Below, in pieces: positions 40,833 to 51,726 of a stretch of 64,000 nt of DNA. Below the pieces are notes generated by a model. It was given only the letters and a program-made list of their open reading frames with translations. It ran no database searches and was not told where the DNA came from. The DNA is from Nakaseomyces glabratus. Its lineage: Eukaryota; Ascomycota; Saccharomycetes; Saccharomycetales; Saccharomycetaceae. A program made the translations under genes and the position numbers. Every line of letters starts with the position of its first letter. The first letter of the stretch is position 1. Location: positions 434,001 through 498,000 of the forward strand of contig NC_088953.1 in the NCBI RefSeq assembly GCF_010111755.1, written 5' to 3'.

Positions 40833-41184
40833 GTGTATAGTTAGTTGGACTGTGTGGATAGTTATGTTGTTTTCAATTGGAAGATTCGGTATTGATCTAC
40901 AAAAGTTATGTCTTGACTTATTAACGTTGTGGCAAGCTCATCGGGCCTTCTGCAGAAGGCCCGAATGGCCTCTATGTGGGGGTGGGGCAAATCCCATATT
41001 CTTCCAGAGGACAAGATAGCAGCCACGATCAGGAACACTAAGTGCTCGATGTTTCTAGGCTTCTTGTAACGTGCTAGAGGCCCATACACATCAATTCTTG
41101 TATCATACAACGCTCACAAGTCAAATATGTAACATGAACTATATAGCGACCCAGCCTGGAACACAGACATCAAGATCACAATAT
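40833..41184. promoter_or_regulatory. AIM25 promoter with 24-bp palindrome
   Basis: 352 bp between AIM25 and tRNA-Leu. It contains a 24-bp perfect palindrome (entered separately) 108 bp upstream of the AIM25 start. No ORF is credible. Confidence 0.55.
40941..40964. repeat. 24-bp perfect palindrome upstream of AIM25
   Basis: Half-site TCGGGCCTTCTG is followed without spacer by its exact reverse complement. It is GC-rich (16 of 24 bases) in an otherwise ordinary promoter. Confidence 0.95.
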
Positions 41185-41293
41185 GGGAGGTTGGCCGAGT
41201 GGTTTAAGGCGTCAGATTTAGGTGAGTTGAAACACTTAAAGCTTAAATTCTCTGATATCTTCGGATGCAAGGGTTCGAATCCCTTATCTCTCA
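41185..41293 (+). tRNA. tRNA-Leu (anticodon UAG) with intron
   Basis: A class II tRNA with 5' exon 41185-41222 and 3' exon 41250-41293. A 27-nt intron (41223-41249) lies one base 3' of the anticodon, the standard position. The anticodon stem is TCAGA/TCTGA, with anticodon TAG. D arm, variable arm (ATATCTTCGGAT) and T arm (CAAGG-GTTCGAATC-CCTT) are all present. The mature length is 82 nt. The exons resemble S. cerevisiae tL(UAG). Confidence 0.96.
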
Positions 41294-41459
41294 TTAATTT
41301 TTTTTTTGGCTCCCTTCTCAGTGCCAACGACGACTTCTTCACAGGATAAGTCCAATCCTGCGAAGAACCTGATATTTCAGCAAGTGTCTTGGTAATCCTA
41401 TATATTTTTGGCTTGAGCTGGATATAACAGCTGGGTAGAGTTGTAAGCAGGAGCACTAG

Positions 41460-49881: not shown

Positions 49882-50706
49882 ATGTTGACTAGAGTTAGAG
49901 GGAACGCTCTGGCGGTGCTGAGATCGAGGGCCGTAAGTGCTAGGCCAGTACTGCCAATGGCTTCGCAGCACAGGCTTGTGGCAATGAGAAAGCTGACGAC
50001 CAACAGAGTGCTATTACAAGAGCAAAAACAGGATAAGAGCACTAGTGCTGTTGTAGATGAAAACTTAAGTTTCACTGATGAAGAAGTGGATGAATGGTTA
50101 AAAGACATAGAGGAATTAAAGACAGAATTCTCTGAGCGTGAGTTTCTGCCCGAAGTGTCATTGGCACCCCCAGGTCAAGCCAGAATAGACTTAGTCGAAG
50201 AAGCCATCAAGTCATCTCAGGAATTCGAACCATCACAAGAACAGCTGGAAGAATGGGAGGCCTTAAAAGATCAACCTATGCCGCAATTGAAAGATCCTAC
50301 TGTACAACACGTCACAAATATGATCATGAGACATGGTAAGAAGGACAGGGCGCAGAAGATAATCTCTAGGGCCTTATATTTCCTACATTGTAAGACAAGA
50401 AAGGACCCCGTTGAGCTATTGAAGAAAGCCCTTGACGACATGGCACCATTAATGATGGTTAAAACTTTCAACACAGGTGTTGCTAAGGCCGCTGTGATTC
50501 CAGTCCCATTAAGCCAAAGACAAAGAAATAGAATTGCTTGGAAATGGATAGTCGAAGGTGCAAATAAGCGTGTGTCCAACGATTTTGCAGTAAGGTTGGG
50601 TGAAGAACTTGTGGCCGTCTATGAAGGGAAGAGTAGCGGCTTCGAAAAGAGAGATCAAATGCACAAGACTGCAATTGCACATAGATCATACATTCAATTG
50701 AGATGA
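49882..50706 (+). CDS. RSM7: mitochondrial ribosomal protein uS7m
   Basis: A component of the mitochondrial 37S subunit (bacterial S7 family), 274 aa (247 in S. cerevisiae YJR113C). From the ATG at 49882 a basic presequence ([20 protein letters not shown]) is followed by an acidic yeast-specific region to about 130. The S7 domain follows, with [37 protein letters not shown] and the end [11 protein letters not shown]. It is the first recognised gene of the inverted chromosome X block. Confidence 0.94.
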
Positions 50707-50842: not shown

Positions 50843-51350
50843 TCATCCCTCGATAGAAATTCTGTTGCTATAACTTTCATGGAGGTAAGCCGCAATTATT
50901 CCACATCCGCTTCCCATCATATCAAAATAGATGTCATAGACATCGAAACTTCTCTTGTTATGTGAAGCTATCTTTTGAAACAATTCACTTGCTATACCAG
51001 CAAACCCACAGCATATAACGGTGGCAATGATGTACTTGTTTACCTGATAGTAAGTTGTGGATTCAGCATTAGTTGTTCCATTTTCTAAAGGGATACGGTT
51101 CGTTACCATTTCAATATCGTCATTTGGAGATTGTATTGTTCTAAATCGCGGGAGATGAATATACTTCGATGCAACCATCATCACAACTAGCCACGACTCA
51201 ACGGCAAACGCAACGAAGTGAGTTATCTTATCATGATTCCTAGTTAAGAATGTAAACCTCTCATCTGTAGTCAGGCCTAAGAAATAGGAAAATGGATGTA
51301 CACATAAGCAGAGCCAGAAAATAATTCTTTCGTATTCTAATTCCTAGCAT
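50843..51350 (-). CDS. VanZ-like membrane protein, apparent +1 programmed frameshift gene
   Basis: Two overlapping minus-strand frames together encode one VanZ-like protein. Frame 0 starts at ATG 51350, gives 24 residues including the first membrane segment (KNYFLALLMCTSIFLF) and reaches CTT-AGG-C at 51281-51275. Without a shift it stops at 51261 after 29 codons. Skipping the A at 51278 continues GLTTDERFTF... for 144 codons to the stop at 50843. The shifted part contains HDKITHFVAF, a membrane segment with SELFQKI, and FDVYDIYFDMMGSGCG, the DKxxHF, Glu and D-x-x-x-N/M-xxG features of VanZ-like proteins. The total would be 168 aa with four membrane segments. Place and strand fit S. cerevisiae YJR112W-A. 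A disabling mutation or sequencing error is the alternative. Confidence 0.82.
51275..51281 (-). promoter_or_regulatory. +1 frameshift heptamer CTT-AGG-C
   Basis: On the minus strand, in frame 0, CUU-AGG-C is the exact Ty1 slippery heptamer. Peptidyl-tRNA-Leu slips from CUU to UUA while the rare AGG codon waits for its tRNA. It lies precisely where coding similarity passes from frame 0 to frame +1 of the VanZ-like gene. Confidence 0.8.
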
Positions 51351-51726
51351 TATATTGTTGTTAGATCTGTTCTGGTTGAATTGAAGATATATTAATCGAA
51401 TAGTAGGTTTATACATTAATGTTTTATATATCATATTTTTGTTTAGATTTTTGAAGGTCATCGCGACCAAAAGGTTAACTTAATCATTCAAACAATTATA
51501 AAATGCTCATGTTTAAAAAACAATAAGGTACTTAAAGTGACAAGCAATAATGAACAAAGGTATATATTGTACTCAACATCTTTCAATAAGGGTGAGCTTT
51601 ATGTAATATTACAACTTCTCAAACAGGATATTTGAGAGAGGAGGATAATTCAGAATATGAAGGTCATTAAGGTGCATGAAGTCGTCAGGAAAAGAGCGGA
51701 ACATCTGCAAATGCATAAAAATCAGA
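51351..51726. other. intergenic, promoter of VanZ-like gene
   Basis: 376 bp of AT-rich sequence. Frame 0 of the VanZ-like gene is open upstream to an ATG at 51470, which would add 40 non-hydrophobic residues; this is less likely to be the start. No other gene was seen. Confidence 0.45.

Follow-up and report, generated by a model that had tools for sequence, protein, structure and literature searches.

The locus described here raises the question of how a small gene of Nakaseomyces glabratus, whose coding information is divided between two overlapping reading frames, is expressed. It lies in a window of 64,000 nt (NC_088953.1, positions 434,001-498,000), and the coordinates given below are window positions unless another sequence is named. 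On the minus strand frame 0 is open from 51479 to a TGA stop at 51263-51261, and the +1 frame, comprising 166 codons, is open from 51343 to 50843; the two share the 83 nt between 51343 and 51261. An earlier note on this DNA had proposed that the reading passes from one frame to the other at the heptamer CTT-AGG-C, and a frame scan agrees with this anatomy: the heptamer is located in frame 0 at 51281-51275, near the end of the frame, which reads CTT AGG CCT GAC TAC AGA TGA. Counted from CTT, frame 0 has six codons to its stop; the +1 frame, from GGC onwards, continues for 144 codons. It is highly probable that the gene is the orthologue of YJR112W-A (LLP1), that it encodes a small VanZ-like membrane protein of the lipocone superfamily and that it is expressed by +1 programmed ribosomal frameshifting.

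Frame 0 contains ATG codons at 51461, 51434, 51416, 51350 and 51305. The likeliest start of the LLP1 orthologue is the ATG at 51350, because the sequence TATATAAA at 51430-51423 on the minus strand, a possible TATA box, would put the ATGs further upstream before or very near the start of the transcript. The frame-0 part of the gene then extends from 51350 to 51261 on the minus strand, with 24 codons (MLGIRIRKN...) through CTT and, at 51263-51261, the TGA at which unshifted ribosomes would end; the +1 part begins with GGC at 51277, encodes the VanZ-like domain and ends with a TGA stop at 50843. Reading CTT-(A)-GGC from 51350, with the A at 51278 skipped, produces a protein of 168 residues. The +1 frame has no ATG ahead of its conserved part, as had been stated before; the earliest is found at 51181, which corresponds to residue 57 of the shifted product, beyond the DKxxHF motif.

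The identity of the gene is indicated by its neighbours. Upstream, on the same strand, lies the orthologue of NNF1 (52389-51727, minus strand; Pfam Nnf1, 2.4e-25), and downstream, in convergent orientation, the orthologue of RSM7 encoding mitochondrial uS7m (49882-50706, plus strand; mitochondrial S7, 2.2e-92, and Pfam Ribosomal_S7). The gene order YJR112W, YJR112W-A, YJR113C of Saccharomyces cerevisiae is, we take it, the same NNF1, LLP1, RSM7 arrangement. Its position between NNF1 and RSM7 identifies the gene as the probable orthologue of YJR112W-A/LLP1.

The shifted product carries the features expected of the family in the part encoded downstream of the heptamer, as had been noticed from the sequence: DKxxHF at residues 40-45, glutamate E122 in SELFQ, and RSFDVYDIYFD from residue 133. 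Hydropathy windows peaking at 1.4 or above cover residues 10-28, 42-60 and 106-124, and the region of the last helix stays below 1.4. The first of these windows straddles the frame switch; the earlier note had assigned the start and a first membrane helix to the upstream part. The product scores 26.6 bits with Pfam VanZ (PF04892), under the gathering cut-off of 30.1, and 21.5 bits with NCBIfam vanZ_1, above the cut-off of 20; at E <= 0.001 the LLP1 locus is the sole match of PF04892 in the genome. YJR112W-A has been placed in a fungal VanZ-2 group of the lipocone superfamily, for which a lipid-modifying role was suggested, with the motifs RKxxH in helix 2 and DxxxD in helix 4 (PMC12419801). 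In N. glabratus helix 2 has DKxxH (DKITH) instead of RKxxH, in which the K and H are kept and the R is not, and helix 4 contains D139-IYF-D143. A single-sequence structure prediction suggested long helices near residues 8-25, 39-63, 96-128 and 135-161, at a poor pLDDT of 47. The search of the PDB with this pLDDT-47 model gave 16 matches, none at E <= 0.001 (best E 2.7), and a sequence search of the PDB yielded three weak matches (E 0.85-0.93, none at E <= 0.1) to an unrelated kelch protein. Homologues from other yeasts were sought in the protein collection, which returned only the downstream ORF of the window itself.

The heptamer alone is not rare in the window: CTTAGGC occurs four times, against 5.87 expected. 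Of these four sites, only the one at 51281 combines an ATG in the frame-0 run with a +1 run of at least 60 codons. When the 83-nt overlap was shuffled with its dinucleotides preserved, CTTAGGC appeared in frame 0 in 179 of 100,000 shuffles, and any of CTTAGGC, CTTAGTT and GCGAGTT in 486 of 100,000; both figures are post hoc, since the site was picked after reading the sequence. An in-frame heptamer by chance is unlikely, and a chance origin was dismissed on the former, post hoc figure.

On the preferred reading, ribosomes would initiate at an upstream ATG, most likely that at 51350, translate 24 codons of which CTT is the last, and stall at AGG, whose slow decoding is attributed in this proposal to the scarcity of its tRNA. 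The Leu-tRNA(UAG) would then move from CUU to UUA, and decoding would resume in the +1 frame with GGC and reach the 50843 stop after 144 codons. Ribosomes that do not slip would release a 29-residue peptide at the stop at 51261. That slippage takes place in N. glabratus itself, and at what rate, we infer from the sequence. The product probably acts in the membrane on a dolichol-pyrophosphate-linked substrate, to judge from the title of the LLP1 paper cited below. RNA folding around the heptamer was no better than that of shuffled sequences, either upstream (z 0.96) or downstream (z 1.37), which is in line with the reported absence of a proximal stimulator from LLP1 in Saccharomyces (PMC12661321).

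Genes for the tRNAs concerned were sought in the genome by pattern searches checked with ARAGORN, and the pattern counts are lower bounds; an Rfam tRNA search, in which 63 of 810 candidates were scored, was left out of the counts. For tRNA-Arg(CCU), one of five pattern matches was confirmed by ARAGORN (L002, 1469-1542, plus strand), the sole such gene found by pattern in the genome, and the other four are not tRNAs. All 12 matches for tRNA-Gly(GCC) were confirmed. A longer pattern found four copies of tRNA-Leu(UAG), all of which the first pattern had missed because the gene has a 27-nt intron. Leucine tRNAs with the anticodon AAG (IAG) or GAG would decode CUU efficiently; no tRNA-Leu(AAG) was present among the matches of two patterns and no tRNA-Leu(GAG) among those of one, whose scope was intronless Leu-GAG genes; such patterns can miss genes. 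This set, with few Arg-CCU and many Gly-GCC genes in addition to Leu-UAG, agrees with frameshifting at CUU-AGG-C. The same balance of Arg and Gly tRNAs is described in PMC12661321, and the part of the Leu-tRNA in +1 slippage in PMC12719033 and PMC5009743. One tRNA-Leu(UAG) gene lies in the window itself, at 41184-41294 on the plus strand; it contains the 27-nt intron, was missed by an intronless scan and found with introns allowed, and encodes the tRNA to which the slip at CUU is ascribed.

The earlier note had likened the heptamer to that of Ty1 and ABP140, and the sequence is indeed of this type and recurs in the N. glabratus orthologue of ABP140. A scan for frame switches at CTTAGGC or CTTAGTT covered 11 loci, namely 10 of the 12 methyltransferase-domain matches and the antizyme locus, and a single locus passed (L020; contig 10, heptamer from 2257, minus strand). 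From its ATG, 198 codons lead to CTTAGGC; frame 0 reaches its stop in three codons counted from CTT, and the +1 frame stays open over 336 codons. Its N-terminus, MGVADLIKKFE, we take to be that of ABP140 (Lifeact). This ABP140/TRM140 orthologue switches frame at the same CTTAGGC as LLP1. An upstream stem-loop stimulator has been reported for ABP140 of Saccharomyces (PMC12661321), whereas the fold of the 100 nt upstream of the N. glabratus heptamer, ending 3 nt before it, shows no such signal, being no better than shuffles (z 0.05). The antizyme (OAZ1-like) locus was seen to carry GCG-TGA-C ahead of the antizyme frame (L019, near 1200, plus strand); this is the frameshift site of OAZ1 (PMC12719033, PMC5009743).

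Splicing could also join the two frames, as in the annotation of YJR112W-A in S. cerevisiae, and it had been left open before whether an intron is used there. An intron is annotated for that gene, its ends were doubted in 2011 (PMC3226532) and it has since been judged wrong (PMC12661321); a survey of 2014 lists divergent orthologous introns of YJR112W-A in close relatives only (PMC4202332). At the N. glabratus locus 19 combinations of a GT-AG pair and a start codon could join the frames, in a scan of GT-AG introns of at least 30 nt with donors within 51480-51201. Neither a GTAYGT donor nor a TACTAAC or RCTAAC branch site occurs in 51726-51180; ATCTAAC is present once, at 51366. Six combinations share the top score, with 9 of 13 positions agreeing with the splice consensus. 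The first helix is lost in four of these; in the other two, residues of the +1 frame take its place and the acceptor is AAG. An intron at this locus was dismissed, as the scan found no consensus splice signals, and we regard it as very unlikely. A sequencing error or a strain-specific indel in a gene that truly has one frame would likewise yield two overlapping frames from a one-base difference. The change of frame falls on an established +1 heptamer that stands in the correct phase, an arrangement as infrequent in shuffled sequence as stated above, and orthologues divided in this way at this heptamer have been reported from other genera. Since these orthologues are divided at the same heptamer, an error or recent indel is exceedingly improbable.

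The remaining alternative is a gene in decay, or a +1 frame translated alone from a later or near-cognate start into a shorter protein. The protein collection does contain a 113-residue form of the LLP1 orthologue (P0003; window 50843-51184, minus strand), beginning at 51184 with a GTG that is apparently read as Met, and near-cognate codons such as ATT occur in the +1 frame upstream of the heptamer. A start at 51181 or 51184 would nevertheless cost the DKxxHF motif, and the frame-0 part contributes a hydrophobic stretch whose maximum spans the junction. Over its 144 codons the +1 part is free of stops, and it retains DKxxHF, the glutamate and FDxxD. The cluster of the 113-residue form, known by count alone, numbers 22 members on 62 contigs, so the downstream part is no isolated occurrence. 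We therefore give decay or separate translation, like splicing, very little credence.

Programmed +1 frameshifting of the LLP1 orthologue is thus the reading favoured by the anatomy of the locus, by its synteny with YJR112W-A and by the publication of such a shift for the same gene. The suggestion of a further case in yeasts held for the mechanism but not for its newness, since the shift was published for this gene in relatives in 2013, 2017 and 2025. N. glabratus LLP1 is one more orthologue of a known frameshift case and not a new kind. Its presence in a further genus supports the view that the LLP1 shift, established experimentally in S. cerevisiae in 2025 (PMC12661321) and recognised from sequence in Ashbya in 2013 (PMC3737163), is ancient and has been retained in several genera. 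Predictions confined to one frame, such as the 113-residue form, would be expected to lack the first helix and DKxxHF. A dependence of the shift on the scarce Arg-tRNA(CCU) could further mean that the amount of LLP1 changes with the state of translation in the cell, the frameshift acting across Saccharomycetaceae as a conserved regulatory valve on this pyrophosphatase of dolichol-linked oligosaccharides; we consider this improbable, though if true it would couple the quality control of glycosylation to tRNA supply.

Searches of the literature found no text on the N. glabratus copy of LLP1: the available parts of PMC7534453, on Candida glabrata, do not contain YJR112W, those of PMC12661321 do not contain 'glabrata', and those of PMC2876123 hold nothing further on LLP1. 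The closest known system is YJR112W-A/LLP1 of Saccharomyces, which synteny and the VanZ-like domain identify as the same gene, with the same frame-0 heptamer near the 5' end and a +1 product. Fenton et al. 2025 (PMC12661321) describe that ribosome footprints occupy the +1 frame, that reporters shift with an efficiency of about 40%, that RNA-seq coverage is uniform across the annotated intron, and that CUU_A.GG_C is conserved in aligned Saccharomyces orthologues. The shift was thus demonstrated there by ribosome profiling and reporters, whereas N. glabratus belongs to another genus and its shift is predicted from the sequence. In the title of their paper, Li et al. 2025 (J Cell Biol) describe LLP1 as a pyrophosphatase with a part in the homeostasis of dolichol-linked oligosaccharides.

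Beyond Saccharomyces, Ortiz-Merino et al. 2017 (PMC5433688) found CTT-A-GGC in both YJR112W-A homeologs of Zygosaccharomyces parabailii, which is again the same gene in another genus, requiring a +1 shift at this site. Dietrich et al. 2013 (PMC3737163) list Ashbya ABR148CA and YJR112W-A among genes translated across frameshifts, and ABR148CA of A. gossypii is likewise the same gene, in another genus, for which a +1 shift is required. The LLP1 orthologues of Saccharomyces and Z. parabailii share the heptamer with the N. glabratus gene, and so does the ABP140 orthologue of N. glabratus. ABP140/TRM140 and Ty1 use the identical heptamer for unrelated proteins, and ABP140 of S. cerevisiae possesses an upstream stem-loop stimulator (PMC12661321), while none was seen at N. 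glabratus LLP1. BIR1 of C. glabrata, a proposed +1 frameshift gene with a 7-bp site (PMC7534453), is a different gene of the Nakaseomyces clade, and its counterpart in Z. parabailii uses CTT-A-GTT (PMC5433688).
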